A DNA stretch of 64,000 nucleotides from assembly GCA_030698625.1 (NCBI GenBank), contig JAUYMS010000048.1:282404-346403 (forward strand). The letters run 5' to 3'. Shown here one piece after another: positions 7,493-61,091 of the stretch. Position numbers and translations under genes: made by a program. The DNA comes from Candidatus Omnitrophota bacterium. Its GTDB lineage: Bacteria; Omnitrophota; Omnitrophia; Omnitrophales; Aquincolibacteriaceae. The notes beneath the pieces were generated by a model. The model was not told the DNA's origin and searched no databases. It saw only the letters and a list, made by a program, of their open reading frames with translations. Position 1 is the stretch's first letter. Each line of letters opens with the position of its first letter.

Positions 7493-7495
7493 GGC

Positions 7496-7771: not shown

Positions 7772-7776
7772 CTCCC

Positions 7777-9202: not shown

Positions 9203-9219
9203 GGCGCACCCACAAGGTG

Positions 9220-10366: not shown

Positions 10367-10382
10367 GTTGAAGGAGGGCATC

Positions 10383-11618: not shown

Positions 11619-11659
11619 CGGCTTGACCCCGCTCATGGGAGCCGATATCATGGCCCCCT

Positions 11660-12406: not shown

Positions 12407-12408
12407 CT

Positions 12409-15800: not shown

Positions 15801-15973
15801 CGAATCAAATGCGTGAGTTGAATATCGCGGTGCGGCCGAGGCTATGTGATTCTTATTGCCCGTATCCTGCGGTTTGTCGTATTGAAAAATGGAGACTTCC
15901 GATGATTGGCGAAGAAGTTCGGGCCGAGGATGAAAAGGCGCTGCTGGCAGGGAAGCCCGTAGCGAAGAAATAG
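12803..15973 (+). CDS. addB: AddB-type helicase-nuclease subunit
   Basis: A 1056-residue partner subunit of the AddAB double-strand break resection enzyme. The N-terminus has a P-loop 'GPARSGKTHYL', as in Firmicute-type AddB/RexB. The helicase-like middle is inactive-looking. Near residue 910 the nuclease motif 'GILDYKRT' marks a PD-(D/E)XK domain, bracketed by 'YAKCAFKYY' and 'CDSYCPYPAVC', which together give the four cysteines of the family's iron-sulfur staple. ATG 12803 overlaps the previous gene's end; a longer frame from 12686 would overlap that gene by 125 bases and is rejected. addA follows immediately. Confidence 0.9.
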   Translation: MSKSTRTLLIGPARSGKTHYLLEDFERSIADAANPLAGDFFFALPSAEHTDRIISLIVQRGIKGFFHRRITTLSRLISDCFGVGEDDVATNVTRYVILRDILDRESWPIFAEVQKSPGFLNLMLSFISELKESLIGVQDFRERMNSVKQLEPDYAAKYEAVAAIYEAYDAVLGERGLRDRQDAFKIYEGKKRKKYFRPPTLRKVWLDGFFDFSPLQLAYLGELCEVTEEITLTLTAETGAAREAVFGPVLETAAVLEEMGFKIKTMPRARDRMPQGALRHIEGQLFASKRMTASVPSAAELEVFEAVGMEGEVEMIARAIEKMRREGDYRFSDFAVLLRQIGDYESVIRSVFSRYGIPVEIHEREKLGFSPLVRSIVRLLKIFREKWSRTDVIEFLKSAYVCRLGEAVKDYEWVARLEHWAMREGIFRGREAWLKEERLRVLADLEDRLRSSKNFRELRAELVGAVRHLFGIFQIRDDYEDFVRREAAGYRRFEALLDELEYSFTSSKKDGEGNEFSLDAFMDRFFRLTELDLYSLHEKDKNRVQVYDVSLARQKEYRVVFLAGLLEKRFPVQLKEDPVLSDWERRLFNGVQADDKGALRERLPRQAMERYLFYVAVTRVNEKLVLSYPRLDLEGKESLPSYYVAEVLSLFDGEVARRKQDLGRPYPELDEAVNLRELEMSVMGGLWTAERDAVNRAPLLLYLTNRFLGMQGSRDRFRRAFHEIQNVLTDPHIAPLDPFRSGKTSATKLEDYAKCAFKYYARHVLRLMDPDEDINVMRRGIILHDVLERCFRDWSKNPAIFTDVKRAEADALARLEEALKAWPLRLEKEYQWDLERDGMREMLTRFLKREFERIQASPLKPAYFEFGFGAVTRGDAGPLAIGTETGEILISGKIDRVDVDIEGKVAGILDYKRTAAFKRAELEGGVALQLPIYSMAVRKFLGLQPAGAELYSIRDHDKKGFYRDDLLEFFPEATARRMVLKPKEFEALLERTSAFIRMYANQMRELNIAVRPRLCDSYCPYPAVCRIEKWRLPMIGEEVRAEDEKALLAGKPVAKK

Positions 15974-46073: not shown

Positions 46074-46445
46074 ATGAAAACTATATTAATTATTGATGAC
46101 GAAGAACTTATTGTGAGATCTCTTTCAAATGCGCTTAAGAGAAGCGGGTATGAGGTGACATTTGCAAAGCGCCCCGAAGATGCAATTGTTATGGTAGAGG
46201 AGGAGGATTTTGATCTCATAATAAGTGACATTCGAATGCCGGGTCTTAACGGCATTGAAACTGTGCAAAGAATCTTTGAATCTCTAAAGGAACGCGGCGC
46301 AAGCAAAGTGCCAACTATATTTATTACGGGCTATGCCGACGAGAAGCTGGAAGCGGAAGCTAAAAACTTAAATCCAAAAGCCTATATTCACAAGCCGTTT
46401 GATCTTGTCGATTTTCTGAAGAAAATTAAAGAGGCATTGGCATGA
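46074..46445 (+). CDS. Single-domain response regulator
   Basis: A 123-residue receiver: 'LIIDDEELIV', phospho-acceptor D52 in 'DLIISDIRMPG', Thr/Gly of 'FITGYADEK', Lys in 'YIHKPFDL'. No output domain is attached. Its sequence is close to the receivers fused to enzymes at 47457, 49353 and 52930, which share the 'GYA(D/E)E' loop. Ribosome site AAGGA, seven bases before the ATG. It overlaps the methyltransferase gene by four bases (ATGA) and opens the operon-like run 46074-49043. Confidence 0.92.
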   Translation: MKTILIIDDEELIVRSLSNALKRSGYEVTFAKRPEDAIVMVEEEDFDLIISDIRMPGLNGIETVQRIFESLKERGASKVPTIFITGYADEKLEAEAKNLNPKAYIHKPFDLVDFLKKIKEALA

Positions 46446-47464
46446 GTGTTCAAGCGTCCATTAAATCAGAATCGAATCTTCGCTCAAGAGTAAAATTTTA
46501 TAAAAAATGGATCGATGAAATCCAAAAATACCTTTCATCCCAACCGCAAGAGTGGGGGCGTTTCCAAAGCGAATTTAATCAGGAGGTTAATGGGGTTTTT
46601 CGCGATCTGATGCTTTTTGAGAAAGAAACTATTAAGCGGGGCAGCGAAGAAAAAGTGTATAAATTAAAAATGTTTTTTGTTCGGTGGTTTAGAGAGGACT
46701 TTGTGAGAGGATGGTACATTCCGCATAGTGTAAAGCAACCTTATGGGTATGCGGGAGATTTTGAAATAATCGATTTGATTTACAAAAACAATCCGAACTC
46801 TTTAGGATTGGAACGCCTTTACGATAATTACTTCCAAATGTCTGCAATTTCAATAGCGGTTAGAAATCGCAAAGAGGATTTTAAGAAAATAATCTCGAAT
46901 TTTGTCCAGAAAAGCCCAAAGAAAAATTTGAAAATTATGGATCTAGCTTCAGGGCCGTGTCGTGATGTGTACGAGTTACTTTGCGAGAAACATTTGGAAC
47001 CCAAGAACGTTCAATTTGATTGTTATGACAGTGATCCGAATTCTAGTCAGTATGCAAAACAAATTTTAGAAAGTCATCCCTCCGTAGCTTTTTTTAACCA
47101 AAATGCCGTGAGGATCGCATTAATGAGAGATGTGGCAGTAAAGATTCCTTATAAATACGACGTCATTTTTTCAACAGGGCTTTTTGATTACTTGGATTAT
47201 GGTGTTTCCGTGCGCCTAATTTCGAATTTAAAAAAACTGTTGGCGGATGGCGGGATCTTGGCTATTTCTGATGTGAGAGATAAATTTAGTAACCCTTCGA
47301 TTTACTTTATGGAGTGGGTTGCGGAATGGAATTTGATTTACAGGCCAGATGATGAATTTCGTAATATTTTTCTTGAAGCTGGATTCAGTAGAAATAATCT
47401 CTCGTTTGATTATGAGCAGCAGGGTGTTATGCAGTATGTGATAGCAAAGAGTGACTATGAGTAA
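46442..47464 (+). CDS. PhcB-like SAM-dependent methyltransferase
   Basis: A 340-residue enzyme. The N-terminal helical part leads to 'KQPYGYAGDFEIIDLIY' and 'ISIAVRNRKEDF', segments that I recognise from proteins annotated as 3-hydroxypalmitate methyl ester synthesis proteins (PhcB of Ralstonia). The methyltransferase core has 'KIMDLASGPCRDVYELL' as motif I, 'FDCYDSDPNS' as motif II and 'YDVIFSTGLFDYLDYGV' as motif IV. PhcB makes a fatty acid methyl ester quorum signal. Here it lies among ACP, ketosynthase and thioesterase genes, so methylation of an acyl product is a reasonable guess. Overlaps both neighbours. Confidence 0.75.
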   Translation: MSVQASIKSESNLRSRVKFYKKWIDEIQKYLSSQPQEWGRFQSEFNQEVNGVFRDLMLFEKETIKRGSEEKVYKLKMFFVRWFREDFVRGWYIPHSVKQPYGYAGDFEIIDLIYKNNPNSLGLERLYDNYFQMSAISIAVRNRKEDFKKIISNFVQKSPKKNLKIMDLASGPCRDVYELLCEKHLEPKNVQFDCYDSDPNSSQYAKQILESHPSVAFFNQNAVRIALMRDVAVKIPYKYDVIFSTGLFDYLDYGVSVRLISNLKKLLADGGILAISDVRDKFSNPSIYFMEWVAEWNLIYRPDDEFRNIFLEAGFSRNNLSFDYEQQGVMQYVIAKSDYE

Positions 47465-49043
47465 AAGTATTCTAGTTGTAGATGACGACAAATTAGTGCT
47501 TGGGAGCGTCTCCAATCTTTTTATAAAAAATGGATGGAGAGTTAACGCATGCTCAAGCGGTAAAGAGGGATTAAAACAATTAGCTATCGATCATTATGAT
47601 TGCATCCTCCTTGATATAAAAATGCCTGATCTGGATGGGACGCAAGTCTTAGAGCGCTTGAGGAGCTTAGAGTGCGAGAGAAAAATTGATCATCAGAGAG
47701 TCATTATAATGACCGGATTTGCTGATGAAGAAGCTTCTGTCAAAGCGTTTCAGCTAGGAGCGTTTAATTATATAAACAAGCCATTTGAAATCGAAGACGT
47801 TTTGCAGAAAGCCGAAGAATGCGCCAATTCTAAAAGCGTTAGCCAAACATTCGAATCCCCGCCGACAGAAGAATCGGAAGAGATGGTTTTAAAGAAGATA
47901 AGGAAATCCTATGAGCCTGCTGATGTTCAGAAGAAAGCCTCTATACTTTCAAAAAAATTGAATGTCCCTCTCCAGCATATAAAAGGTTGCACTTACGACA
48001 CCAATCATTTTAAAGGGAATATTGAAAATCCTATAGGAATTGTTCAGATTCCACTAGGACTGATCGGGCCGCTTGCCATTAATGGAAATCATGCAAAGGG
48101 TGATTTTTGGGTTCCTCTGGCCACAAGCGAAGGAGCTCTTAGCTTGACTTATGATTTAGGTGCGCGGCTATTAAGGATGTCTGGTCCCGTGGAAGTGGAA
48201 ATTATTTCAAAGGGCGTTCATATTGCACCGATGTTCCCGCTGGTGGGTGATAATGGGCAGCTTATATCGGAATTTGTTGATAAAAGTTATAACGAAATTA
48301 AAAAAGTCGCCGAGGGTGCGAGTAATCACACAAAACTTTTGAGAATCGAAAAAAAGAAAACGGCGAATAATTTCCTACTGAAGTTTGTTTATGATACAGG
48401 GGATGCTCAAGGGCTGAATATGATTAACCAAGCATGTTTTAATGCTTGTAAATATATTCAAGCCAAAACCGGATTCAGATTTTATCATCGCTCTCACTAC
48501 AGTGGAATAAAGCATTTTTCACCGCTTAATGAAAGGGAAGGACAAGGGCGGAAAGTTAAAGCAAGCGCGATTATTTCTTCTAAAGCGCTTGGAATGTTGA
48601 AAGTTAAAGCTGATCAGATGAAAGATTTTTTTGACAGATGTATTGAGTGTGCGCATGCTGCCGGCATTTCTTCTGTGAATGTTCACGCCGCTAACGGAGT
48701 CACAGCAATTTTTTTAGCGTGTGGTCAAGATATGGCTGACATAAGTTGTTCTCATTCTGCCGCTACCGCCGTCGAAATCATAGACGGAAAAGATCTTAAA
48801 ATTGATGTTGTCCTGAATAATCTTATGGTTGCAACGGTCGGCGGAGGGACGGGGCTTGGGACTCAGCGTGAATGTATGGAAATAATGGGCTGTCTTGGTA
48901 CTGGAAAATCGGACAAATTTGCTGAAATTATCGCAGCGACTGTATTGGCGGGTGAATTCCCCACGGCAGCTGCCGTTATTACTGAAACCTATGTGGATAT
49001 ACATAATAAATATGGCCGCAATAGAAATAAATTAGTCTGTTAA
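47457..49043 (+). CDS. Receiver domain fused to HMG-CoA reductase
   Basis: A 528-residue fusion. Residues 1 to about 120 are a REC domain ('LVVDDDKLVLG', phospho-acceptor D53 in 'CILLDIKMPD', 'MTGFADE', 'INKPFE'). Residues about 150-528 are an HMG-CoA reductase catalytic domain: 'ENPIGIVQIPLGLIGPL', 'PLATSEGAL' (catalytic Glu, about 225), 'DTGDAQGLNM' (cofactor motif), Lys about 352 in 'GIKHFSPLN', 'ACGQDMAD' (Asp about 425), 'ATVGGGTGLGTQ' and His about 516 in 'DIHNKYGR'. The four catalytic residues appear kept, though the usual D-K-K is I-K-H. The reaction could be NAD(P)H reduction of HMG-CoA or of a related thioester. Start ATG 47457 (47451 also possible). Confidence 0.87.
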   Translation: MSKSILVVDDDKLVLGSVSNLFIKNGWRVNACSSGKEGLKQLAIDHYDCILLDIKMPDLDGTQVLERLRSLECERKIDHQRVIIMTGFADEEASVKAFQLGAFNYINKPFEIEDVLQKAEECANSKSVSQTFESPPTEESEEMVLKKIRKSYEPADVQKKASILSKKLNVPLQHIKGCTYDTNHFKGNIENPIGIVQIPLGLIGPLAINGNHAKGDFWVPLATSEGALSLTYDLGARLLRMSGPVEVEIISKGVHIAPMFPLVGDNGQLISEFVDKSYNEIKKVAEGASNHTKLLRIEKKKTANNFLLKFVYDTGDAQGLNMINQACFNACKYIQAKTGFRFYHRSHYSGIKHFSPLNEREGQGRKVKASAIISSKALGMLKVKADQMKDFFDRCIECAHAAGISSVNVHAANGVTAIFLACGQDMADISCSHSAATAVEIIDGKDLKIDVVLNNLMVATVGGGTGLGTQRECMEIMGCLGTGKSDKFAEIIAATVLAGEFPTAAAVITETYVDIHNKYGRNRNKLVC

Positions 49044-49044
49044 T

Positions 49045-49261
49045 GTGGGTAACATACTCTCTCCCTTCTTCCTTCTTTCATCAGCAGCCACTTTCCTATT
49101 AGGAATTTGGGTTGTCAGTTTAAATTCACGAAACAAGATCTATCTTTCCTGGTTTTTTTTGTCTCAGTGTTTCTCTATGGAGTTTTGGCCTAGGTGTTTT
49201 GACTTGTGTAAGAGATCAACTTAATATGGTCGCGAATCTGATTAAATACCGTCCCCAATAA
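49045..49261 (+). pseudogene. Frameshifted N-terminal remnant of a multi-helix sensor kinase
   Basis: From GTG 49045 the frame gives 'MGNILSPFFLLSSAATFLLG' and a first membrane helix, then 'SLNSRNKIYLSWFF'. At a run of eight T (near 49154) one extra base breaks the frame; the other frame continues 'SVSLWSFGLGVLTCVRDQ'. 'ALWSFGL' after a short basic loop is typical for the second helix of seven-helix histidine kinase sensor domains. The rest is lost, with a stop at 49261. It starts right after the REC-HMGR stop, so a kinase gene probably once followed there. This accounts for the gap before 49353; a TATAAT box at 49327-49332 precedes the next gene. Confidence 0.65.
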
Positions 49262-49352
49262 TGCCTCGCTTTTTTATCATTACCCCAGTATAATTTAGCA
49301 AAAAATCGACATTCCCATTGTTTGCATATAATACTTTTTGTACCCATATTTT

Positions 49353-50264
49353 ATGAAAACTTCACAAAAGATTCTCATCCTTGAAGACGACCCGCTTGTA
49401 CGAAGGACTTTGAAATCTCTTCTGGAACAACGAGGTTACGCCGTTTCTGTAGTTATGAATGGACGCGAAGGGATTGAGATGGCGTCAAAGGAAATTTTCG
49501 ATCTAGTCATCAGTGACATCCGAATGCCGGAAATGAATGGTATAAAGGCTGTGGAAGAAATTCAGAAAATTCAAAAAAAAACCTCTCAGAAGACAAACTA
49601 TATGTTCATAACAGGATATGCAGAAGAAGATGCACCTGGTTCTGCAATCAAGTTAGGCGTTACCGACTTCCTGTTAAAACCTTTTGATGTTGAACAATTT
49701 CTAACAACAGTGAAAAGAAATTTAGAAGATGGTGAGGCTGAAGAGTTTAAAGAGCTAGTAGTTCAAGTGAAAGCTTATTCGCCGGAAGGTAGATGGCAAT
49801 TTCCAGCGAGAGAATTTATCTTTGAAAAATTGATTACTCTTAAGGAAACTAATATGGAGCAAAACGTCTATTTTGCAAATTATGTTGTATGGCAGGGAGA
49901 AGCTCGCGAAGTTTTTCTGTTATCACACCCTCATTTTGAAGACGAATTCAAAAAGAATAGCCAGATCAAGATGATTACTCATAGCGTCTATCATAGCTTC
50001 CAACACGAGTCGTTTTTTGGCGATTTTGTCCAGATTAAAATCACCACCCGTGAGATCAAAAGATGCAGTTTTGTTTTGGTTTTTAAATTTTTCAACAAGA
50101 AAACAAGTGCTTTTCTTGGGCAAGGGTGGCAAAGGATTGCATTTTCCGATTTGAAGACAGGAAAAATATGTCAAATTCCACATTATATTCTGGATTTGGC
50201 CACCCCTGTCCTTGAGGATTCTATTCGAAGCTCCTCGACATTAATAAAACCGAATTTGCAATAG
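49353..50264 (+). CDS. Receiver domain fused to hotdog-fold thioesterase
   Basis: A 303-residue fusion. Residues 1-120 are REC ('LILEDDPLVRR', D55 in 'LVISDIRMPE', 'ITGYAEEDAPG', 'LLKPFD'). Residues about 150-300 look like a 4HBT-type hotdog thioesterase: 'ITLKETNMEQNVYFANYVVW' followed by QGEAREVF. This variant with E-T-N and W-Q-G recalls thioesterases of enediyne polyketide pathways. These release acyl chains from ACP or CoA. TTG 49338 also opens the frame, but ATG 49353 is preferred. A -10 box TATAAT (49327-49332) precedes it, while the -35 is poor. The receiver is very like that of REC-KAS. Confidence 0.8.
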   Translation: MKTSQKILILEDDPLVRRTLKSLLEQRGYAVSVVMNGREGIEMASKEIFDLVISDIRMPEMNGIKAVEEIQKIQKKTSQKTNYMFITGYAEEDAPGSAIKLGVTDFLLKPFDVEQFLTTVKRNLEDGEAEEFKELVVQVKAYSPEGRWQFPAREFIFEKLITLKETNMEQNVYFANYVVWQGEAREVFLLSHPHFEDEFKKNSQIKMITHSVYHSFQHESFFGDFVQIKITTREIKRCSFVLVFKFFNKKTSAFLGQGWQRIAFSDLKTGKICQIPHYILDLATPVLEDSIRSSSTLIKPNLQ

Positions 50265-50296
50265 ATTCATTCTAAGTCGAGGCGGACTTTCCATCT

Positions 50297-50698
50297 ATGG
50301 GTGAATTCAAATATCGATTCTGGGTAGATGGCAAAATGGTCCTCCCTAATGATCCCGCCAATGATTTTATTATTCATCCAACTGGAACAATACAACGGTG
50401 GGACAAGAACCAAGGGCGTTTAGTGCCCGTTCCAGGTGTTATCGCGCTGCTTTATGCCGGCCCTACCGATGCTAATGATAAGGAAGTCTGTGAGGCAGAT
50501 TTTTTGAGTTTCGCTGGAAATAAGGTAGGGGAGGTGTTCTACAAAAAACAGACCGGATCTTTTCAGGTACGGTTTGCATCACCTAAAAATGATTCCACTC
50601 TAACCTTCTTCCTCCAAATGAACCCGGATGCCAAAATAATTGGCAATGGTCTTCAAAATCCTGAACTAAAAAAATCAATCGGAAATAGTGAGCCATAA
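50297..50698 (+). CDS. YopX-like protein
   Basis: A 133-residue protein. 'YRFWVDGKMVLPNDP' at the start and 'LLYAGPTDANDKEVCEADFL' in the middle match the YopX family ('L-Y-G-x-x-D-x-x-G-K-x-I-Y-E-G-D'), known mainly from phages and mobile elements. Its function is unknown. It separates two parts of the biosynthetic cluster and is a sign of insertion or mosaic history. Confidence 0.7.
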   Translation: MGEFKYRFWVDGKMVLPNDPANDFIIHPTGTIQRWDKNQGRLVPVPGVIALLYAGPTDANDKEVCEADFLSFAGNKVGEVFYKKQTGSFQVRFASPKNDSTLTFFLQMNPDAKIIGNGLQNPELKKSIGNSEP

Positions 50699-50702
50699 AT
50701 AA

Positions 50703-51209
50703 ATGTGGCTGCTCGATTGTATTAAAAAATTTATCCGAGGAAACCTCTCTGAGAAATGTTTAAAAATCGATGCTTCAATTTTAAAATTCGATAAGGATAT
50801 AGCAAACGTAATTTCAATGTGCCTTAATTTCAAAGAAGAATTAAAGGAATTAAGAGCAGAAATGAATGAAGTTGGAAATAGTTACTCAGCAAAGCTGCTT
50901 AGCAATGAGAAAATCGATATTTTTGTAAAGCGCTATTCGGAAATCGTAATAAGTTATGATTTAGCGTGTAAAGAATTTGCGAAGACAGATCCGGACCTCG
51001 AAAAGATCATGTTTTCGGATGGCGACGTGATAGATCTTGCCCGTGACGTTGAGACTTTAATCGCTGAAGTGAAATCGCATCAGAGTTTCGGGGCAAATTT
51101 TGAAGGCGCTGTATCCTATATTTTCGAAACACTCGCCCCAACAGTAGATCGCATTATAGAGGTTGGCCGCGCTATTCAGGAAAAGGCTCGAGAGACTCCA
51201 CCCCACTAA
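50703..51209 (+). CDS. Unknown alpha-helical protein
   Basis: A 168-residue protein, almost entirely helical by composition, with a probable coiled coil around 'LNFKEELKELRAEMNEVGN' and an ending 'IFETLAPTVDRIIEVGRAI'. No family was recognised. The C-terminal 30 codons and bases after the stop occur again in decayed form at 52132-52254. It starts four bases after the YopX-like gene. The gap 51210-51446 has only a 34-codon open frame of unclear meaning. Confidence 0.6.
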   Translation: MWLLDCIKKFIRGNLSEKCLKIDASILKFDKDIANVISMCLNFKEELKELRAEMNEVGNSYSAKLLSNEKIDIFVKRYSEIVISYDLACKEFAKTDPDLEKIMFSDGDVIDLARDVETLIAEVKSHQSFGANFEGAVSYIFETLAPTVDRIIEVGRAIQEKARETPPH

Positions 51210-51446
51210 AACTTAATTTGTCATATTTGGGCTTGAGCTTAAAAATAGTTGCTAACGCGTATTGGTGATTCATAGGATGAAGCTTGGATGCAATTGTACG
51301 TTTTCAAAACAAGCGCTTAGGCAAAATTGTTTGTGAAACACAGCACACACTTGTTTTGTGTAGACTCACGCTCAGGTAAATTTACACATATTCCTGAACT
51401 AATCAAATCCGCTGTTCTTAAATATCAGGAAACACCGTAACTGAGA

Positions 51447-52139
51447 ATGAATAAAAAAATCACATTGGTTAAGTTTTTTATGTTTGCCGGCAATATCTTA
51501 GTGCCATGCTATGCCATCGCCATGTGCATTTTATTCAAACGAACATTTGGCGGTATATCGTTTGCGCTATTTATTTCTGCGATGATCATGGAGAGAGCGT
51601 GGGAGACGTTTAAAACTTCAAAGGAACAGCATCGAGAGGAATTCCATGGTGACTGGACTCTCGCAGTTGTTACCTTTTCATATCTTTTTTTATTCATTCT
51701 AACAATCACCGAGTTTTACCTATTTAAACAAAGTAGTAATATTTATTTAGCTGCATTAGGGGTTATCTTATTAGGGAGTTCATTCCGAATGCGATTTTGG
51801 GGGATGGCAGCATTAGGAAAGCAATGGGCTGTTCACGCGGTTGGGGCTCAAAAGATAAGGAAGGTAAGAATTGTAAAAGTTGGCCCCTATAAATATATAA
51901 GGCACCCAATCTACTTGGGAATAATTTTTGAGGAGTTGTCGTATCCGCTAATTGCCAATGCAAACTATGCATTATTCTTTGCCGCTTTTGTATGCATCCC
52001 TTTGGTTGTGATTAGAGCATTGACCGAAGAAAAATTCTCAGTGAGGCGCTTTGGTGAAAAGTATTTAAGTTACAAAAAAGAAGTTGGGATGCTATTTCCT
52101 GTACAGTTGTTAAAAAATAATGGACATTCATCCTTTTGA
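51447..52139 (+). CDS. ICMT-type membrane methyltransferase
   Basis: A 230-residue integral membrane protein with about five helices. The C-terminal 'VKVGPYKYIRHPIYLGIIFE' and 'RALTEEKFSVRRFGEKYLSY' are the SAM-binding signature of the isoprenylcysteine carboxyl methyltransferase / phospholipid methyltransferase family. Such enzymes methylate carboxylates or amines of lipid-like substrates at the membrane. Here it could act on the product of the REC-fused enzymes. It starts with ATG 51447 without a clear ribosome site, and is flanked by the two copies of a roughly 100-base repeat. Confidence 0.82.
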   Translation: MNKKITLVKFFMFAGNILVPCYAIAMCILFKRTFGGISFALFISAMIMERAWETFKTSKEQHREEFHGDWTLAVVTFSYLFLFILTITEFYLFKQSSNIYLAALGVILLGSSFRMRFWGMAALGKQWAVHAVGAQKIRKVRIVKVGPYKYIRHPIYLGIIFEELSYPLIANANYALFFAAFVCIPLVVIRALTEEKFSVRRFGEKYLSYKKEVGMLFPVQLLKNNGHSSF

Positions 52140-52254
52140 AACACTGGCTCCCTCGGGTAATCGCATTAAAGAAGTTGGTCTGGCAATTCGGGAAAAGGCT
52201 AGCGAAACCCCTACCAAAACGTTAAATATTCCGCCCCTTCATGTAGTGGTCTAA
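52132..52254 (+). pseudogene. Decayed duplicate of the 3' end of the gene at 50703
   Basis: This stretch reads 'PFETLAPSGNRIKEVGLAIR' and 'EKASETPTK', compared with 'IFETLAPTVDRIIEVGRAIQ' and 'EKARETPPH' at the end of the helical protein. It overlaps the last bases of the ICMT gene and has no start. The two copies bracket the ICMT gene about 1 kb apart, as after a tandem duplication or an insertion. The following bases to 52387 contain no gene. Confidence 0.7.
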
Positions 52255-52387
52255 ATACGTCACGAGCCCAGATATAGTTCATTTAATCCTATCAAGTCTT
52301 TTACATAAAAAATGCATATTATATTAAGGTTTTAGCCTTACAATAGGGAACAATAAGGAATAACAAGGAATGGGGAGGCTCCTTTAA

Positions 52388-52561
52388 ATGGATCTTAGTG
52401 GTTATTTGACTGTGCGGAAAGTTGCTAGAAAGCTTGATCTGACGGAAGAACGAGTTAGGGAGCTGATTAATTTGAAGCAAATTAAAGCAACCAAGGTGGG
52501 AAAGTGGCGGATTAAACCCGTGGATTTAGAAAAATTTATTAAATCTAGGACGAATCGATAA
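52388..52561 (+). CDS. Excisionase/MerR-like small HTH protein
   Basis: A 57-residue protein: 'YLTVRKVARKLDLTEERVRE' then 'LINLKQIKATKVGKWRIKPV' and 'DLEKFIKS'. This is the HTH_17 pattern of excisionase-family DNA-binding proteins. GGGAGG lies about ten bases before the ATG. Such proteins regulate small operons or take part in excision. It directly precedes the ACP/REC-KAS operon and could be its local regulator. Confidence 0.75.
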   Translation: MDLSGYLTVRKVARKLDLTEERVRELINLKQIKATKVGKWRIKPVDLEKFIKSRTNR

Positions 52562-52674
52562 GAAATCAGATAGAAAAATGATCATTTTTGAGCTTCAATC
52601 CAATGAATTTAAGGCCGATAATTATTCGATAAGATGTAGTTTATTTTGTAAGCATTTAAAGCTTGGGAAATCTG

Positions 52675-52914
52675 ATGCAAATTGAACAGCGCGTGTCACA
52701 AATTATAGTTGATCAGTTAGGGGTTAAACCCGAACGAGTGACGATTGACTCTGACATTGTGGATGAGTTGGGTGCAGACAGTTTGGATACGGTAGAGCTA
52801 GTCATGGCGTTGGAAGAAGAGTTTGAAATTGAAATCTCCGATGAAGACGCGGAACGAATGAAAAAGGTCAAGGATGTAATAGCTTATTTAAAAAAACGTT
52901 TGGATCAAAAATAG
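52675..52914 (+). CDS. Acyl carrier protein
   Basis: A 79-residue ACP. The 4'-phosphopantetheine serine is in '[20 protein letters not shown]', and the remainder ('[20 protein letters not shown]') is a standard type II ACP. It differs from a housekeeping acpP only by context: it stands 15 bases before REC-KAS and not in a fab operon. It would carry the growing acyl chain for the REC-fused ketosynthase and thioesterase. ATG 52675 is preferred to the TTG at 52663. A remnant of a sister gene lies at 45963. Confidence 0.93.
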
Positions 52915-52929
52915 GAAACTATTCAATCA

Positions 52930-54621
52930 GTGAATCCGAAAATTAAAATCCTTTTGATTGATGATGATCAGCTTGTCGTAAAGACGTTGACAATTCTTCT
53001 GACTAGAAAAGGCTATAGCATTACGACAGCGAACAATGCTATCGAAGCAATATCTAAAGTTGCAGTTTCGGATTTTGACTTGGTTATTTCTGATATCCGA
53101 ATGCCTGGGGATAACGGTATCATCGCGATTGAAAAAATTAAACAGATTCATGAAAATCGGCAAGTTGTTTGTGGGTACATATTTCTTTCAGGTTACGCAG
53201 AAGAAGATACGCCCGCACACGCAATTCGCTTAGGTGTAGATAAATTCTTATATAAGCCATTTGATAATGAAGTACTAATAAAAAATATTGAGGAAGAAAT
53301 TGATCTTGTCAGTAAAAAGAGAGAATTAAAGAGTCCTAGTGTACGTCCCACCATAATTTTAACCAAAGATGAAATAGATAGACCTAAACGTAGACGGGCA
53401 GTCATAACAGGTGTTGGAGTCGTCGCTCCGAATGGTATTGGAAAAGATGCTTATTGGAATGGTTTAAAAGAAGGAAAAAACTGTGTTAACGAAATTACCT
53501 TTTTTGATATATCAACGTACCCTTCAAAAATGGCTGCTGAGGTTCTTAATTTTAATCCGTCAGATTTTATTTCACAGCACTCTGATATTAAGCGAATGGC
53601 CCGTTCTTCCCACTTAGCAATTGCTGCCGCAAGGCTTGCGTTTCAAGATTCCGGTTTAAATGGCACAAGCAATCGTAACTTATCAGTCATACTCGGAAGT
53701 GCGACGGCCGGTATTGAATACATAGTGCCAGAAGTTCGTGCTTTAGAACGAGGTGGAATCCGAAAAATTAGGCCATATTTGGGTATTGCGGGGTTTGGCG
53801 GCTCTATTTCGAGTGAAATTTCTCGGTCGATAGGCGCGCAAGCGGCAAGCCATACAATCTCAACTGGGTGTACTTCATCGACTGACGCCATGGGCTATGC
53901 GCTGCGCCAAATTCAATTTGGTTTAGCTGATTACATTCTTACTGGCGGTGCTGATGCCTGCGTTGAGTCTGGTATTTTAGGTGCTTTCTGCCAAATGGGA
54001 GCTGTTTCCACCAGGAACCATGAGTTCAAAAAAGCTTCAAGGCCGTTTAATAAAGATCGCGATGGATTCGTTATTGCAGAAGGTAGCTGGATTTTTATTT
54101 TAGAAGAGTTAGAGCACGCATTAAAAAGAAAGGCAAAAATTTATGGCGAGCTTGTCGGCTATGCGTCAACTTGTGATGCTTGGCATATGGCTAAGCCGCA
54201 CCCGTCTGGGGAACATACAGCAAAAGCAATTGAACTTGCATTGCAAGATGCATCTATAACACCAGATCAGGTAGATATTTTTGAAGCATATGGAAACGCA
54301 ACTCCAATAAATGACAGTTATGAAACAGCGGTCATAAAAAAAATATTTGGTAAGCATGCCTATAAAATGGCTGTGCCTTCCGTCAAATCCATGCTAGGCC
54401 ATCCCATTGGGGCCGCAGGTTCACAACAAATGGCTGCTGCATTGTTTGCCCTCAATGAAGGGTGGATTCATCCGACAATAAATTATGAAGTTCCTGACCC
54501 AGAATGTGACCTGAACTGTATTCCTAATGTCGCTCAACAAGGCAAATTCAATATCGCGATTTGCAACAGTCTTGCCTTTGGTTCAAAAAATTCAACGATC
54601 ATTGTAAAAAAATATGATTAA
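52930..54621 (+). CDS. Receiver domain fused to beta-ketoacyl-ACP synthase
   Basis: A 563-residue fusion. Residues 1 to about 125 are REC ('LLIDDDQLVVK', D55 in 'LVISDIRMPG', 'LSGYAEEDTP', 'LYKPFD'). Residues about 155-563 are a FabF-type ketosynthase starting 'RRAVITGVGVVAPNGIG'. The nucleophile Cys314 is in 'ISTGCTSSTDAMG' and one active-site His (491) in 'SVKSMLGHPIGAAG'. The other position, normally His in 'AHGTST', is Tyr454 in 'EAYGNATPIND', so the triad is Cys-Tyr-His. That may change decarboxylation or the extender used. Start is GTG 52930. It overlaps the next gene by eight bases. Confidence 0.9.
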   Translation: MNPKIKILLIDDDQLVVKTLTILLTRKGYSITTANNAIEAISKVAVSDFDLVISDIRMPGDNGIIAIEKIKQIHENRQVVCGYIFLSGYAEEDTPAHAIRLGVDKFLYKPFDNEVLIKNIEEEIDLVSKKRELKSPSVRPTIILTKDEIDRPKRRRAVITGVGVVAPNGIGKDAYWNGLKEGKNCVNEITFFDISTYPSKMAAEVLNFNPSDFISQHSDIKRMARSSHLAIAAARLAFQDSGLNGTSNRNLSVILGSATAGIEYIVPEVRALERGGIRKIRPYLGIAGFGGSISSEISRSIGAQAASHTISTGCTSSTDAMGYALRQIQFGLADYILTGGADACVESGILGAFCQMGAVSTRNHEFKKASRPFNKDRDGFVIAEGSWIFILEELEHALKRKAKIYGELVGYASTCDAWHMAKPHPSGEHTAKAIELALQDASITPDQVDIFEAYGNATPINDSYETAVIKKIFGKHAYKMAVPSVKSMLGHPIGAAGSQQMAAALFALNEGWIHPTINYEVPDPECDLNCIPNVAQQGKFNIAICNSLAFGSKNSTIIVKKYD

Positions 54622-56248
54622 AATTCTAATCTCTTTACTTGTGATATGGACAATTTATGATCGAATTAAAACCACGTTTGGTCAAACCGCCTTTCACACA
54701 GAACGCGTAGAGAGTAAAACCAAATTATATTCAGTCTTAATGATCGCATTTTACACATCGATTACCTTATACGGGTTTTATCAGTTTGTTTTTTTATTAA
54801 AGGCCATTAATTTTTTTCTCAGTATAGCGGGAATTTTTTTATTTTTACTTGCGAGATTATGTAGGAACATCGGGATTAATACTCTCGGGTTACAATGGAA
54901 CAGTCATACATCCGCCGCCCCAATAAAAAGGCTGATTACGGTAGGAATATTTCAATATAGCCGTCATCCCTATTATTTGGGCACCTTTCTGGAACTCATC
55001 GCATACTCGCTGATTTTTAATTCGTTTTTGATGATTATTCTGATCTTTACATGCTTCCTTCCATTGTTGATGCTTCGGGCTCGCTCAGAGGAAAAAAATC
55101 TTATAAATAAATTTCATGATGCTTATTCGAGATATAAGCGCGAAGTGCCGCTCATTTTTAATATTAAAAAATTTTATGCTGATAATATTAAACAGAGTGA
55201 TTTGTCGCAAATTATATCGATTATAAAGCGGTTTGGTATTCAACAGTTAATAAATATTAAATTTATGGCAAGCACTGTGACGAAATATTCTCGTGGATAT
55301 GCTGTTGCGAGAATCGCGGGAAGTTTAATAGACATTGGCTTAATAGATATTATTCGTGAAAGGGGAAGTGTTAATGTCCAAGATGTCTGCGCGGAAAAAA
55401 GATGGGAAGTTAAGCCGCTAAAAGTTGTCTGCGATTATTTTGTGATTATGGGAATTTTTTCGAAGGACGGTTTAACGTATGGCCTAACGAACTATGGGAA
55501 AAAATTGTTTAATAATTCCAAGGGCGCATTTTCACTTTTATATGCATATATGCCTATTTTTGAGAATCTCCCAGAAATAATAAAAAAAGAAAAAATATAC
55601 GGCCGAGATATTCATCGTAAAAGTGAGTTTGTCGGTAAAGGAAGTGCTGAATTGGCTAAGCTCTTACCATTTCCATATGCTAAGGATATTTTGAAAAGGC
55701 ATAATCTCCACCGCATATTGGATTTAGGGTGTGGGTCAGGAGATTTTTTAATAAACGCCTGTTCAGAAAACGGATTTTATGGATTCGGGATCGATTTATC
55801 GTCAGAAGTAATCTCTATTGCCAAGGAACGAGCACGAAGTGCGAATGTAGAAGATAAAATAGAATTTACGATTGGCGATGTCCATAAACTTAATGAGTTG
55901 CCTGATAATTTTAAGCAAGTGGATGTCATCACCAGCATGTTTGTTATTCATGAATTTTTACCAGAAGGCCATGAAAAGGTTGTAGAGATTCTAAGGTCTA
56001 TCAGAGAAGTGTTTCCTGATAAATATCTTCTAATATGTGAAGTATGTCTATGGAATTTGAGACAATTGATAAAAACGCCTGTGGCAATTGCAGAACATCA
56101 TCTTTTTCACAAATTGTCTAATCAGGGTTTGGCAACGCGTAAAGAATGGCATGCTCTTTTTAAGAATGCCGGATTTGAGAGTGTTGAAGAAAAAAGGTTT
56201 GATAAGGCTTCCCAGGCGTATTTCCTTTTGAAGGCGCATAATTCTTAA
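54614..56248 (+). CDS. ICMT-like membrane domain fused to SAM-dependent methyltransferase
   Basis: A 544-residue protein with two methyltransferase modules. Residues 1 to about 195 are a membrane ICMT-like domain (helices near 1-15, 38-60, 65-85 and 120-160) with 'GIFQYSRHPYYLGTFLELIA' and 'RARSEEKNLINKFHDAYSRY'. Residues about 200-330 form a winged-helix dimerisation-like region. Residues about 360-544 are a class I methyltransferase ('RILDLGCGSGDFLINACS', 'GFGIDLSSEVISIA', 'VDVITSMFVIHEF'). This could methylate a carboxyl and a hydroxyl of one product. It overlaps both REC-KAS and the kinase genes, so it is in the same operon. Confidence 0.82.
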   Translation: MIKILISLLVIWTIYDRIKTTFGQTAFHTERVESKTKLYSVLMIAFYTSITLYGFYQFVFLLKAINFFLSIAGIFLFLLARLCRNIGINTLGLQWNSHTSAAPIKRLITVGIFQYSRHPYYLGTFLELIAYSLIFNSFLMIILIFTCFLPLLMLRARSEEKNLINKFHDAYSRYKREVPLIFNIKKFYADNIKQSDLSQIISIIKRFGIQQLINIKFMASTVTKYSRGYAVARIAGSLIDIGLIDIIRERGSVNVQDVCAEKRWEVKPLKVVCDYFVIMGIFSKDGLTYGLTNYGKKLFNNSKGAFSLLYAYMPIFENLPEIIKKEKIYGRDIHRKSEFVGKGSAELAKLLPFPYAKDILKRHNLHRILDLGCGSGDFLINACSENGFYGFGIDLSSEVISIAKERARSANVEDKIEFTIGDVHKLNELPDNFKQVDVITSMFVIHEFLPEGHEKVVEILRSIREVFPDKYLLICEVCLWNLRQLIKTPVAIAEHHLFHKLSNQGLATRKEWHALFKNAGFESVEEKRFDKASQAYFLLKAHNS

Positions 56249-58512
56249 TGGGCGCAACAGCTCATTTTTATCTGTCGGCCGTACTTACCGCTGTGTTAAA
56301 TTTTCTTCTATTATTATTTGTATCCAAATTTGCAAGAAACCAAGTATTGAAAATCAGGTTTATTTGGTATGGAATCGCTATTGCTTGGTGGGCGCTTTTT
56401 TTGTTTCTATTTTCATTTATAGGTGACCAAAAGCTATCTTATTTGTTTTGTCAACTACTTCATGGAAGCTCGATCTTTATCCCCCCCCTCTTCTTCCATT
56501 TTCTTTTGTCTTATCTGCAAATAGACAAAAAAAGAGAATGGGTCATTCTGCGTATTTCCTATATCGTAAGCGCCTTTTTTTGGCTCATTAATATTTTTAA
56601 ATCTGAATACTTTATTTTGAGCGTCACTCCAAAACTTGGATTCCCATATTTTATGAATCCAGGCTCATTATATACAGCATGGATGGTGTATTTTTTTGTG
56701 GTTGTTATATATGGGCATGTGACCCTGCTTATGAGTGTCATTAAATCGGAGGACATAACAAGGAAGCAGCGGTTGTTTTTTTTGATTGGAAACTCGCTTG
56801 GATATGTCGGTGGTATAGGGACATTTTTACCAGTATACAACATTACATATTTTCCATACCCATATGGAGTTTATGGAGTCGCTTTGTTTAGTCTAGTAAC
56901 TGCATATACAAGTATAAGGTTTAAATTTATTGACATTGAAGTAATTTTAAAAAAGACGCTTGTCTTCGCGGGGATTGTGACCGCCGCCGTTTCCACTATT
57001 GCGCTTCCGCTCGCAATATTTCAAGCTGTAATCGGGAAAGCTTTTGGAGTTCCTCATCCCTTTGCTCTCATGGCGCTTGGCATTGCCACTACAGTGCTCA
57101 TCTACCGACCCGTGGAGCGATTTCTTGTCAACATTACTGATAAATTTCTTTTCCAGAAAAAGTCAGAAATTAAAGTCATTCTCAATCGGCTGTCGGAGCG
57201 GGTTATTACGATTGTCGATATGGAGCAGATTGGGAAAACAATTCTTTCTACATTGGAAGAAACGTTGCGGCTAGAATCCGGACTGATTTTTTTACAAAAC
57301 AAAAAAACGGTGGGTGGTTATCGGATATTAGATCATTTTGGAATGACAGCCGTCGAGCTTACAGCCAGCTTTCAATCGTTGATTGATGCCCCTTCAATCA
57401 TAGGTTACTTTTCCAACAACGGTCAGACTGTTTTAAACCTTGATCATTTTGATGAAAAACTCGATTTATCTGAAACTGTTTCAAATTGGCTGAAAATATC
57501 GAAATCCCGCGTTTGCATTCCTTTGATTATTAATGAGGAACAATTTGGCCTTCTGGTGCTTGGCGAAAAGAAGTCGGATCAGGAATTTACCCAAGAAGAA
57601 ATGGATTTTTTTCCAACTATAGCCAGTCAAGCTGCGTTAGCGATTCGAAATGCCCGTTTAATTGAGACAGTAGTTCAGGAAAGGGAAGCAAAAGCAAAAG
57701 CTCAGCATGAAGCGAAAAGGGTTCATTATGCTGAAATGCTGGCGCATGAAGTCAAAAATGCAGTCACGGCCGCTGATTTACAAGGCCGGTCGCTATATGA
57801 GCAAGTCGAGCCAAAATTCAGACTGATTCAGGGAAAGTTTTTCAATGATTCGTTGCCTCCCGTGGCAATTAAGCAGTATGAAAAGATGTGTCAAAAACTT
57901 GTCGAAATCGGTCATGGGATTCAGGATCGTTGCAGAAAAATCAGAATCATCACAAAGACTGCACAACATTATCTCTCATCCGACAAAACTATTTATGAAG
58001 AAATTTACGTTAAGATGTTGTGGGAAGATGCTGTAACTGAAAGCGATGTTCAAAATGTGATCTTTGAATTTAAAGGGCCAAAGGAAAAGGACCTGTATGT
58101 ATATGGGAATCCTGTGCTTTTGCAGCGGGTTTTTGTGAATCTTATTAAAAACGCCGATGATGCCATGCGTGATCAACTGGGAAAGAAGATTGCTTTGGAA
58201 TGTGATTACAGAGATGTGGATTCAAATCATGTTGGCTATTTTAAATTCAAAGACAATGGCCCGGGCATTGCTAAAGGAAATTTAGAAAAGATATTCGAAC
58301 GGGGATTCTCAACCAAACTGAAACCCAAAAGCGGGGACTTGTTCGCTTCAGGTTCCGGCTATGGACTCTATTCATGCCGGGAAACCATCGAAGAGTTTCA
58401 TAGTGGTAAGATATGGGCAGAGAGCACTGATGGGGAAGGCGCTTGTTTTATTTTCTGGATTCCAGTTCAAAAGAATGAAGCCGATAAAAATAATCAGCAA
58501 GCAAATGCATAA
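56248..58512 (+). CDS. Seven-helix GAF histidine kinase
   Basis: A 754-residue membrane kinase. Residues 1 to about 225 hold seven or more helices, the layout of 7TM sensor domains that can bind small ligands. Residues about 310-480 form a GAF domain ('SRVCIPLIINEEQFGLLVLG', 'FFPTIASQAALAIRNARL'). The H-box is 'YAEMLAHEVKNAVTAA' (His500). The GHKL ATPase has 'VFVNLIKNADDAM', 'KDNGPGIAKGNLEKIFERGF' and 'SGYGLYSCRETIEEF'. It could sense the compound made by the cluster and phosphorylate the receivers next to it and perhaps those fused to the enzymes. Overlaps the previous gene (TAATG) and the next one. Confidence 0.88.
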   Translation: MGATAHFYLSAVLTAVLNFLLLLFVSKFARNQVLKIRFIWYGIAIAWWALFLFLFSFIGDQKLSYLFCQLLHGSSIFIPPLFFHFLLSYLQIDKKREWVILRISYIVSAFFWLINIFKSEYFILSVTPKLGFPYFMNPGSLYTAWMVYFFVVVIYGHVTLLMSVIKSEDITRKQRLFFLIGNSLGYVGGIGTFLPVYNITYFPYPYGVYGVALFSLVTAYTSIRFKFIDIEVILKKTLVFAGIVTAAVSTIALPLAIFQAVIGKAFGVPHPFALMALGIATTVLIYRPVERFLVNITDKFLFQKKSEIKVILNRLSERVITIVDMEQIGKTILSTLEETLRLESGLIFLQNKKTVGGYRILDHFGMTAVELTASFQSLIDAPSIIGYFSNNGQTVLNLDHFDEKLDLSETVSNWLKISKSRVCIPLIINEEQFGLLVLGEKKSDQEFTQEEMDFFPTIASQAALAIRNARLIETVVQEREAKAKAQHEAKRVHYAEMLAHEVKNAVTAADLQGRSLYEQVEPKFRLIQGKFFNDSLPPVAIKQYEKMCQKLVEIGHGIQDRCRKIRIITKTAQHYLSSDKTIYEEIYVKMLWEDAVTESDVQNVIFEFKGPKEKDLYVYGNPVLLQRVFVNLIKNADDAMRDQLGKKIALECDYRDVDSNHVGYFKFKDNGPGIAKGNLEKIFERGFSTKLKPKSGDLFASGSGYGLYSCRETIEEFHSGKIWAESTDGEGACFIFWIPVQKNEADKNNQQANA

Positions 58513-58909
58513 AGCAAAGAAAAAGATACTTATTATTGACGATGAAGTCGATATTTGCCAGGTATTCAAGGATCTCTTAGAGTTTGAAGATGTCCGTGGA
58601 TATGAAGTCGAATATGTGACGACAGCCGAAGAAGGCATTGAAAAGCTTGAGAATGGACAATACAGCGTTCTTTTTGTTGATATTAAATTGGGCGGAACAA
58701 TTTCAGGCATTGACATCATTAAACGTGCCAGAGGACTTATCCACAGACCAATAATCGTAGTCATTTCTGCGATTCCAGGGAGCGCCTTGGCGCCCATTTT
58801 TTTAAAGGAAGGTGTGAAGGATTTAATTTATAAATATTATGAGAAAACAGACAGTTTGACGCCCGACGTCATCCTTAAAATAATCCAGAATCTTATGCAA
58901 AAATTATGA
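58505..58909 (+). CDS. Single-domain response regulator
   Basis: A 134-residue receiver: 'ILIIDDEVDICQVF', phospho-Asp 59 in 'SVLFVDIKLGG', Ser of 'VVISAIPGS'. The usual Lys-Pro-Phe is replaced by 'LIYKYYEK', where Lys is kept but Pro is lost. The ATG at 58505 overlaps the kinase stop by eight bases; longer in-frame starts inside the kinase gene are rejected. It is the likely first phosphate acceptor of the seven-helix kinase. Confidence 0.88.
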   Translation: MHKAKKKILIIDDEVDICQVFKDLLEFEDVRGYEVEYVTTAEEGIEKLENGQYSVLFVDIKLGGTISGIDIIKRARGLIHRPIIVVISAIPGSALAPIFLKEGVKDLIYKYYEKTDSLTPDVILKIIQNLMQKL

Positions 58910-58919
58910 AGGTGAGATC

Positions 58920-59729
58920 ATGAATCAAGTAAAGAAAACCGTGTTAGTTGTTGATGATGAAAAGCCGGTGGTTGCCCAAATTTATTCTTATTTGAAAGCC
59001 TGGCGGAATTACGAACCTATCGCAACCGCTAATCCTGCAATGGTCGAGAAAGTTTTGGACACGTGCCAGGTTCAGCTTATTATTGCTGATCTTAGAATGC
59101 CCAATATTAGTGGATTTGACATTATTAGGATGGTTCGTGCTCGGGGATTGAACATACCTATTGTCATTATTACGGCCTATCTGGCGACTGAGTTTCCGAA
59201 ACTGAAAGAGCTGGGCCTGACTGAAGACGACGTCGTTGAGAAACCATTTGAGCCAAAAACATTGGAAGAAAAAATTGGCAAGAAATTGAAAATTGAACCA
59301 TCTGCTGCTGAAGCTGATGGAGTGATGGTGGAAAATAGTGCAAAAATTTTAATCGTGGATGATGAGCAGGAAATTGCCGAGATTTTTGCCACTACCCTCC
59401 GGGAAGATGAGTACGAAGTTACAACTTTTGGAAATGGCAAGCAAGCGTTAGAGCATTTAAAGGAACATGCAAACGAATACCATATTGCCGTAATCGATAT
59501 CGCGATCCCTGGACTACTTGGGCATCAACTGATACAAGGACTTTTAAAATTAAATCCCAAAATAGCTGTTATCCCTATTTCTGCCCGTTATCCTGATAGT
59601 ATTAAAGAACAACTCAAAAGTGTGGGTTTTGATCCGGAGAAACTTGTTACGAAGCCATTTGACCTTACGGCGCTTATGACGCAAATCAAGGAATATGCGA
59701 TCAAGGCGGGTGTTTATAAAGAACATTAA
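58920..59729 (+). CDS. Double-receiver response regulator
   Basis: A 269-residue protein made of two REC domains. REC1 (1-125): 'VLVVDDEKPVVAQ', 'LIIADLRMPNISG', 'VITAYLAT', 'EKPFEP'. REC2 (about 138-262): 'ILIVDDEQEIAEIF', 'IAVIDIAIPGLLG', 'PISARYPD', 'TKPFDL'. Both phospho-acceptor aspartates are kept, and there is no output domain. A double receiver suits a phosphorelay hub or phosphate sink. AAGGTGA ribosome site before the ATG. Its end overlaps by four bases the end of the convergent XRE-cupin gene. Confidence 0.9.
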   Translation: MNQVKKTVLVVDDEKPVVAQIYSYLKAWRNYEPIATANPAMVEKVLDTCQVQLIIADLRMPNISGFDIIRMVRARGLNIPIVIITAYLATEFPKLKELGLTEDDVVEKPFEPKTLEEKIGKKLKIEPSAAEADGVMVENSAKILIVDDEQEIAEIFATTLREDEYEVTTFGNGKQALEHLKEHANEYHIAVIDIAIPGLLGHQLIQGLLKLNPKIAVIPISARYPDSIKEQLKSVGFDPEKLVTKPFDLTALMTQIKEYAIKAGVYKEH

Positions 59730-61057
59730 AGTTGTATTGCTTTATGTGTAGCAAAAAATACTTGAGCCTGTGTTTTTGATGCGTTGCGCAAAGCGTAGCC
59801 GAGATTTCCATCAAGATAAGCGCTCTCTCCTTTAGAAAGAGAAATAGTCTTTTTTCTCTTTCCCACGAAGACTTGAATCTCTCCTTCCTCAACATAAAGT
59901 GCAACCATCGATTTATCTTTACGCTCCCAAGTATCTTTTGATACTTGTCCCGCCCCTTCAATGAAAATCTGACCGCAGAAGAATAGATTATTGATCCCCG
60001 GCGGGGTGCACGCATAAATTTTTAATCCATGATGTATATATTCTATCCATGCTCGAGTTTTAGCATTCGCAACGGAGAAGGGATGGTCCTTCAATCCTTG
60101 CGCCCATAAAAGAAATTCATCCATTGACACATTCGTAGCGCTAAGAAGATCTTCGATTTTCTCCCAATAAACTACGGAAGCACCTTGTTTAAGACGCATG
60201 ATTTCAATAAGCTGTCGTTCATTCAAAGTATCCGTCAGATCGGCCAAATGACGCAGTGACATTTGCTTGTTTGCTCGTTCGGATCGGTAAGATCGGATCG
60301 CGTCAACCCCTTGAGAAATATTAATAGGTGAAGGATTGCAAGCCGGTCCTGATTTTAGCCTGGAAAGTTTGTCAAAGTTCGGGAGCTTTGTAATCAAATA
60401 AATAATGGCTGAATGATCTTCATCTTCGTTAAAGATGGAATGAGGGAAAAAACCATCAAGTGAATAGGCTTGTCCACTGGTCAAACTATAGGGTTTCTTG
60501 TCACCGCATAAAACTTTAATGTTAAATCCTTCCGCGATATAGGAAATGATAGGCATGTGAACTCCAAGCAGCAAATTTTCGATTGTCCTTTTTGGAGGCA
60601 GTACCAATCGGCAAACAAAAAAATCTTTTTTGCTATTAATGGGTGGAGAGATAGGGGTTAAATCAAAATCTTTCAATCGTAGTCTGATGCTTTGGAACCA
60701 ATCTTCAGGGGTATGCTTCCTTTTCCGGATGCCTTCGATCTCAGGGATTTCATCCGACCGCTTCATAATAAAAAAGTTTCCAGGATCATACTCGCGGCCT
60801 AGAAGGATTAGTTCATCAGTCGTCACATTTAGCGCTTTAGCGCATCGTTCCAGGTTATCAACAGTAGTAGCTTTTTGGTGGTCATTTTCAAAGGACTTGA
60901 ATGTGGAATGATTGATTCTCACCTCATCAGCCAGATCCATCTGACGCAATCCTCGATTGGTGCGGATTTCCCTGATCACAGAACCCACCCGTGGTCTTCG
61001 TGTCGATGGGAAGTCTGGAAGTTTGTCCCGGTAATGTTTGAAAATCTCTCTGAGCAT
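59726..61057 (-). CDS. XRE HTH regulator with two cupin-like domains
   Basis: A 443-residue transcription regulator. Residues about 25-85 form the HTH ('IREIRTNRGLRQMDLADEVR', then 'INHSTFKSFENDHQKA'). Two cupin-like sensor parts follow, one near 150-225 ('SLTSGQAYSLDGFFPHSIFN') and one near 345-440 ('MVALYVEEGEIQVFVGKRKK', 'SLSKGESAYLDGNLGYALRN'). Between them is another helical segment with HTH-like character ('QMSLRHLADLTDTLNERQLI'). Such regulators bind small ligands in the cupin pocket, so this could sense the cluster's product. ATG 61057 (AAAGG upstream) or 61075. Minus strand, convergent with the double receiver. Confidence 0.8.
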   Translation of the reverse strand: MLREIFKHYRDKLPDFPSTRRPRVGSVIREIRTNRGLRQMDLADEVRINHSTFKSFENDHQKATTVDNLERCAKALNVTTDELILLGREYDPGNFFIMKRSDEIPEIEGIRKRKHTPEDWFQSIRLRLKDFDLTPISPPINSKKDFFVCRLVLPPKRTIENLLLGVHMPIISYIAEGFNIKVLCGDKKPYSLTSGQAYSLDGFFPHSIFNEDEDHSAIIYLITKLPNFDKLSRLKSGPACNPSPINISQGVDAIRSYRSERANKQMSLRHLADLTDTLNERQLIEIMRLKQGASVVYWEKIEDLLSATNVSMDEFLLWAQGLKDHPFSVANAKTRAWIEYIHHGLKIYACTPPGINNLFFCGQIFIEGAGQVSKDTWERKDKSMVALYVEEGEIQVFVGKRKKTISLSKGESAYLDGNLGYALRNASKTQAQVFFATHKAIQL

Positions 61058-61091
61058 AAAATTTTTGCCTTTCAATTAAAGACTTTTACAT

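Follow-up and report, generated by a model that had tools for sequence, protein, structure and literature searches.

HMG-CoA reductase (HMGR), the target of the statins, is among the most studied of enzymes, and its bacterial homologues are routinely annotated as mevalonate makers. The protein considered here shares with the class I enzymes (human HMGCR, 1DQ8; archaeal, 6HR7) a full PF00368 domain, the catalytic Glu, Lys, Asp, and His, the ENxIG dimer motif (ENPIG in this case), and the DAxGxNM and TVGGGT cofactor motifs. It differs from them in having a receiver (REC) domain in place of the membrane anchor, in changes at the HMG site (R590I, S684R, D690I, K692H, and L853T, with K735 also altered) and at the CoA site (including N567D and R568L), in the lack of a recognizable mevalonate pathway in its genome, and in its linkage to a 7TM sensor.

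Possible functional parallels come from chemical signaling. RpfF, of the DSF system, is an enzyme of the enoyl-CoA hydratase (crotonase) type. The REC domain of RpfC binds and represses this synthase (PMC5391125), which offers, by analogy, a precedent for a signal enzyme under the control of a receiver. The RpfF/RpfC/RpfG system is also like the present one in combining a fatty-acyl signal enzyme under REC control with a membrane kinase, and in its HD-GYP output (here REC-HD-GYP in genome G133 and 7TM-HD-GYP in G239), but its controlling REC sits on RpfC rather than on the enzyme. A crotonase encoded near a 7TM gene in G046 (L097) was considered as an RpfF orthologue and rejected, its nearest solved relatives being ordinary enoyl-CoA hydratases. 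Synthase and kinase are encoded together in the alpha-hydroxyketone systems CqsA/CqsS and LqsA/LqsS (PMC3376566), which like this locus have genes for an acyl-thioester-using enzyme, a polytopic histidine kinase, and response regulators; here, however, the enzyme is HMGR-like and has the REC fused to it, and the sensor is of a PF16927-GAF type with 7 TM, where CqsS is of a 6-TM type. A further likeness is an alpha-oxoamine synthase near a 7TM gene in G284 (L089); it was rejected as a CqsA, since it is nearest to serine palmitoyltransferases and matches CqsA only at 2e-21. Synthase and kinase are also encoded together in phcBSR of Ralstonia (PMC11960443), where a SAM methyltransferase gene and a histidine kinase share an operon, as here (homology to PhcB is not implied). 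No description of the present system was found in literature on HMGR with histidine kinases or receiver fusions, or on Omnitrophota signaling, within a coverage that was partial and took in few subscription papers.

The window (the whole 64,000-nucleotide stretch of Omnitrophota DNA analyzed here, from genome G000) contains an intact ORF with an ATG start at 47457-49043 on the forward strand, whose 528-aa product has a REC domain (47457-47828, aa 1-124) fused to a complete class I HMGR-like domain (47925-49040, aa 157-528). Pfam places Response_reg at residues 5-119 (E 1.2e-26) and HMG-CoA_red at residues 157-521, over profile positions 2-368 of 368 (E 2.6e-85); this is the only protein with a PF00368 match in the 3.5-Mb genome. 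Read from its sequence, the REC domain meets the usual criteria for a response regulator, with an acidic pocket (D9/D10), a phosphoacceptor Asp (D53), a Thr/Ser (T86), and a Lys (K108), and is thus predicted to be competent for phosphorylation; D53, T86, and K108 are invariant across four REC-HMGR fusion proteins. Full-length orthologues were found, among 47 genomes of the order, in G046 (67% identity), G004, and G005 (61% each), all outside the genus of the window genome; in a fifth relative, L038 (JACPAX010000066.1), the same HMGR domain occurs with no REC attached. Nucleotide differences between the window gene and its orthologues run to 0.60-0.64 at codon position 3 vs. 0.18-0.21 at position 2. 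This excess, the full-length orthologues, and the retention of an altered active-site motif (below) argue against a product of chance or decay. Gene calls were mechanical, and all of the evidence is from sequence. The structure predicted for REC-HMGR (from five sequences) was poor (pLDDT 51.6, pTM 0.33), and for this reason was used neither for fold searches nor for residue distances; the HMGR active site is built between two subunits, which a one-chain model cannot show.

R590 is counted below as an HMG-pocket position in addition to the published list used for the others. The remaining site residues follow that binding-site list (PMC7503714), and all were located by aligning the protein in MAFFT to human, yeast, and archaeal HMGRs; a check of the numbering was passed. 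The initial annotation, working from a manual alignment, had the four catalytic residues kept and the D-K-K motif reading I-K-H, and had named loss of catalytic residues in a proper alignment as a refuting result. Both statements hold: E225, K352, D425, and H516 occupy the positions of human E559, K691, D767, and H866, and I351-K352-H353 stands where the human enzyme has D690-K691-K692, with [I/V]-K-H in all REC-HMGR orthologues. The change to the pocket is larger than was then seen, taking in six of seven HMG-pocket positions and most of the CoA contacts. Only N755 is kept from the set R590, S684, D690, K692, K735, N755, and L853 (at K735, the placement of a single gap decides whether R or D is aligned), while the archaeal and yeast reference enzymes have all seven; one of five CoA-site residues is identical, and 6 of 11 at the NADPH site are kept. 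This pattern of changes is common to all the REC fusions and L038, save for I/L at 590 and I/V at 690. A substrate bound to ACP rather than to CoA would be in keeping with the loss of N567 and R568 in the window's subgroup, an inference from these residues.

Partial loss of substrate and cofactor contacts (as at the NADPH site), together with a change of the catalytic Glu559 to Gln in the G239 HMGR, might instead point to a pseudoenzyme, in which the HMGR fold would serve as a sensor or scaffold for REC without catalysis. That the window protein and its orthologues retain the whole catalytic tetrad, and that divergence is so strongly biased to the third codon position, makes this very hard to credit.

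HMGR-like proteins were found in 21 of 384 Omnitrophota genomes, two of these at weak E-values only. Two groups stand out, an R684-type and an E684-type. In a tree that also took in reference enzymes and homologues from plasmids, the R684-type, with its changes at R590 and S684, is monophyletic (support 100/98). All sensor-linked sequences covering these two positions combine R684 with a non-Arg residue at 590, and no other sequence does; the wider clade with these changes mostly retains K692. Plasmid-borne homologues from Alteromonas, Sinorhizobium, Vibrio, and Photobacterium were considered as members of the clade, but none has R684. One of them, a Sinorhizobium "HMG-CoA reductase" (L082:6010-7254), is in an operon with an acyl-CoA carboxylase and an indolepyruvate ferredoxin oxidoreductase, has a shortened 684 loop, and probably acts on another substrate. 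The E684-type group (L072, L073, L074, L075, and L076) probably does not consist of mevalonate enzymes either; in L073-L076 the gene adjoins acyl-AMP-ligase-like, DUF3419/BtaA-like, and dolichol-kinase-like genes (names from sequence reading).

R684 could be a carboxylate-binding Arg that has moved, and an HMG-like dicarboxylate is not excluded as a substrate. The protein might even be a genuine HMGR with its substrate Arg relocated (loss of R590, gain of R684), whose product, mevalonate or mevaldehyde, would serve some non-isoprenoid purpose: the catalytic tetrad is intact, and the Arg loss and gain go together across the whole clade. We consider this improbable. D690, K692, K735, and L853 are changed as well in the window protein, the CoA contacts are mostly lost, and REC-HMGR scores 241.1 bits with TIGR00533, the curated NADPH-HMGR equivalog, for which the cut-off is 441.8. 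Nor is a mevalonate pathway recognizable, a result that, had it been otherwise, would have refuted the reading of the initial annotation: neither HMG-CoA synthase (PF01154) nor mevalonate kinase (TIGR00549) exceeded its cut-off in any of 19 Omnitrophota genomes that have an HMGR. Such mevalonate-kinase matches as exist are weak and below cut-off, and we read them as other GHMP kinases. These genomes are incomplete drafts, so that absence is weak evidence in any one of them, but not in all 19. The initial annotation had inferred the MEP pathway from ispH, which is at 6326-7492 in the window; dxs is over cut-off elsewhere in the genome (as in 15 of the 19, this one included). With these genes present, and HMG-CoA synthase and mevalonate kinase not over cut-off, mevalonate is an unlikely product of REC-HMGR.

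The genomic setting gives a different indication. An enzyme gene next to that of a polytopic sensor across genomes is what a synthase/receptor cassette should have, and this is met by 14 of 15 R684-type HMGRs, each in a different genome and each with a PF16927 (HisKA_7TM) gene beside it. Usually this is the next gene downstream, overlapping or after a short gap (G004, G005, G046, L038, G074, G133, G062, G284, G125, G181, and G230). In G274 the HMGR is split over two contigs, and the 7TM gene comes after its second half; in G239 a single gene, for a GMC oxidoreductase, intervenes; in the window, REC-HMGR and the 7TM kinase are in the same co-directional cluster, the kinase seven genes downstream and beyond gaps of 294, 237, and 790 nt. 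The sole unlinked case is G163, where the HMGR gene includes a stretch of N close to the end of a contig and the genome yielded no PF16927. None of the five E684-type HMGRs is linked to PF16927. The domain is rare (46 genes in 11 genomes, 1-7 per genome), and in G074 and G133 the HMGR-adjacent copy is the only one in the genome. The chance of adjoining a 7TM gene, multiplied over nine genomes, is about 10^-24.6, an order of magnitude only, which assumes an independence that shared ancestry breaks. Distances among the HMGRs correlate with those among the 7TM domains (Mantel r = 0.63, ten pairs, 0 of 20,000 permutations; r = 0.69, 16 of 5,000, for a reduced set of seven pairs), suggesting that the pair tends to be co-inherited; shared ancestry was not removed from these statistics or from those on adjacency. 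The HMGR-adjacent 7TM domains do not form one clade (6 changes on the tree), but are clustered nonetheless (0 of 500 shuffles). No known ligand was found for the PF16927 domain, which is also present in haloarchaeal kinases (PMC5847659).

Some of these loci have features of their own. G133 has a PilZ-HMGR fusion (L066:1572-3143), likely the same enzyme under c-di-GMP control; a 7TM histidine kinase and a REC-HD-GYP protein come after it. In G239 (L067:7828-16155), genes for a ketosynthase (KAS), an ACP, the HMGR with Glu559 changed to Gln, the GMC oxidoreductase, and two 7TM-GAF-HD-GYP proteins stand in a row, so that the sensor output is HD-GYP and not a kinase; these two loci suggest a link to c-di-GMP. 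In G046, an IS21-like transposase pair (by sequence reading) directly upstream of REC-HMGR (L032:4603-7520) suggests that the cassette there is mobile.

The cluster in the window (46074-59729, all on the forward strand) begins with a stand-alone REC protein (46074-46445), overlapping by 4 nt a SAM-dependent methyltransferase gene (46442-47464, with weak Pfam methyltransferase matches), which in turn overlaps REC-HMGR by 8 nt. Homologues of this methyltransferase are found directly upstream of 7TM histidine kinases elsewhere in G000 and also in G004 and G046 (phmmer 4e-126 for L099, 4e-120 for L101, and 9e-124 for L105). After REC-HMGR come a REC fused to a 4HBT-type hotdog thioesterase (49338-50264; PF00072 1.7e-27, PF13279 5.2e-10), two small proteins without Pfam matches (50297-50698 and 50703-51209), an ICMT-like membrane methyltransferase (51447-52139; PF04140 7.1e-13), and a REC fused to a FabF-like beta-ketoacyl-ACP synthase (REC-KAS, 52930-54621). 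REC-KAS is overlapped by 8 nt by an ICMT-like domain with a SAM O-methyltransferase (54614-56248), on whose last base starts the 7TM (PF16927)-GAF-histidine kinase, the putative receptor (56248-58512; PF16927 match at G000:C13:338684-339340). A stand-alone REC protein (58505-58909, ATG at 58505) overlaps the kinase by 8 nt, and a double-REC protein (58920-59729) ends the series; the same succession, REC and then REC-REC, is seen behind the 7TM kinase in G004, G005, G046, G010, G036, and G022. REC-KAS has full-length orthologues (64-75% identity) in G005, G010, and G036 and a 76% fragment in G022, all four of these relatives in the order being in cassettes that end with 7TM kinase, REC, and REC-REC; in G005, G036, and G022 a homologue of the ICMT-like protein at 51447-52139 lies between REC-KAS and the kinase. 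The window appears to hold two cassettes abreast, REC/methyltransferase/REC-HMGR and REC-KAS/methyltransferase/7TM kinase/REC/REC-REC. Convergent with the cluster is an XRE-HTH regulator with a cupin domain (59726-61075, reverse strand). Similar regulators, several with cupin, are repeatedly convergent to cassette ends (L033:4881-5525, L065:14755-15318, L101:122-751, L179:2152-2793, and L181:1033-2352; identified by Pfam in the window, L033, L065, and L101, by sequence resemblance only in L179 and L181), and may belong to the system.

The initial annotation had suggested an HMG-like or other acyl-thioester reductase within an acyl pathway. A reductase, its activity inferred, is still the best enzymatic reading, with "other" favored because the HMG pocket is rewritten; a place in general acyl metabolism now seems less likely than signal synthesis, given the linkage of the clade to PF16927 sensors. 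We lean, without great confidence, toward REC-HMGR being an acyl-thioester reductase that does not use HMG-CoA, in a signaling cassette of enzymes and a 7TM receptor where synthesis would be controlled through the fused REC. From its fold and catalytic set, the enzyme is predicted to be NAD(P)H-dependent and to reduce an acyl thioester (possibly ACP-bound) to an aldehyde or alcohol in two hydride steps. Together with the methyltransferases, the REC-ketosynthase, and the REC-thioesterase, it would produce or modify a small molecule, acyl or methylated and presumed diffusible, that the 7TM kinase would detect and be switched by; the kinase would phosphorylate the stand-alone REC proteins, and probably the enzyme-fused RECs as well, the latter adjusting signal production at the enzyme level. 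Least certain of all is the assumption that the enzyme product and the 7TM ligand are one and the same. Adjacency would also allow the enzyme to be a sensor output instead of the source of the ligand, and no chemistry, expression, or ligand data stand behind the proposal.

The other PF16927 genes in the same genomes bear on this question, since most directly follow enzyme genes: KAS and ACP (L096); REC, KAS, ACP, and thioesterase (L103); the alpha-oxoamine synthase with a methyltransferase (L089); a methyltransferase alone or REC-fused (L095, L098, L099, L100, L101, L105, and L110); an acyl reductase (NAD_binding_4; L093); an FAD oxidoreductase with an ICMT-like gene nearby (L102); or a GMC oxidoreductase (L112). 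A few lack such a neighbor (e.g., L106, L107, L108, and L111). Twenty ordinary histidine kinases, from G000 only, follow gyrase, tRNA synthetase, response regulators, and similar genes instead, and 7 of them lack a co-directional neighbor within 300 nt, vs. 1 of the 46 7TM genes. Histidine-kinase ATPase domains also occur in giant open frames of 14,273 and 8,869 residues (G000:C48 near 6633-16238 and G000:C41:68215-68589). Most 7TM genes of G181 (L091, L092, L096, and L100) and several in G230 reach the ends of their contigs, as would happen if the assembly had broken at a near-identical repeat.

The same 7TM linkage would fit membrane-lipid adaptation, with the kinase sensing the state of the membrane or a lipid from the environment, and the REC-fused enzymes acting as lipid-remodeling outputs rather than ligand makers. 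KAS, thioesterase, and ICMT-like methyltransferase are enzymes typical of lipid metabolism, and fusion to REC puts enzymes downstream of the kinase. However, the 7TM input module is the constant partner while outputs vary (kinase or HD-GYP), and many cassettes have a single stand-alone enzyme with no REC (e.g., L038, L065, and L068), which better fits a ligand maker. We regard lipid adaptation as rather unlikely, if by no means dismissible.

If the enzymes do make ligands, the Omnitrophota may have modular signal systems in which receptors of a single type, PF16927, are paired with signal-making enzymes that can stand in for one another (an HMGR-like reductase, a ketosynthase with ACP, a methyltransferase, an acyl reductase, an alpha-oxoamine synthase, or a GMC oxidoreductase), the HMGR fold being a new signal synthase, controlled by REC phosphorylation in the window's lineage. 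This broader reading remains tentative, and we stop short of asserting it. What can be said is that a conserved clade with a rewritten HMG pocket goes with a membrane sensor, in a phylum known almost only from metagenomes, which suggests that the HMGR-like enzyme makes a chemical signal rather than mevalonate. If confirmed, this would be a new role for the HMGR fold, would give a pointer to the ligands of the orphan HisKA_7TM sensor domain, and would make chemical communication in the Omnitrophota, with receiver-controlled signal synthesis, open to test.
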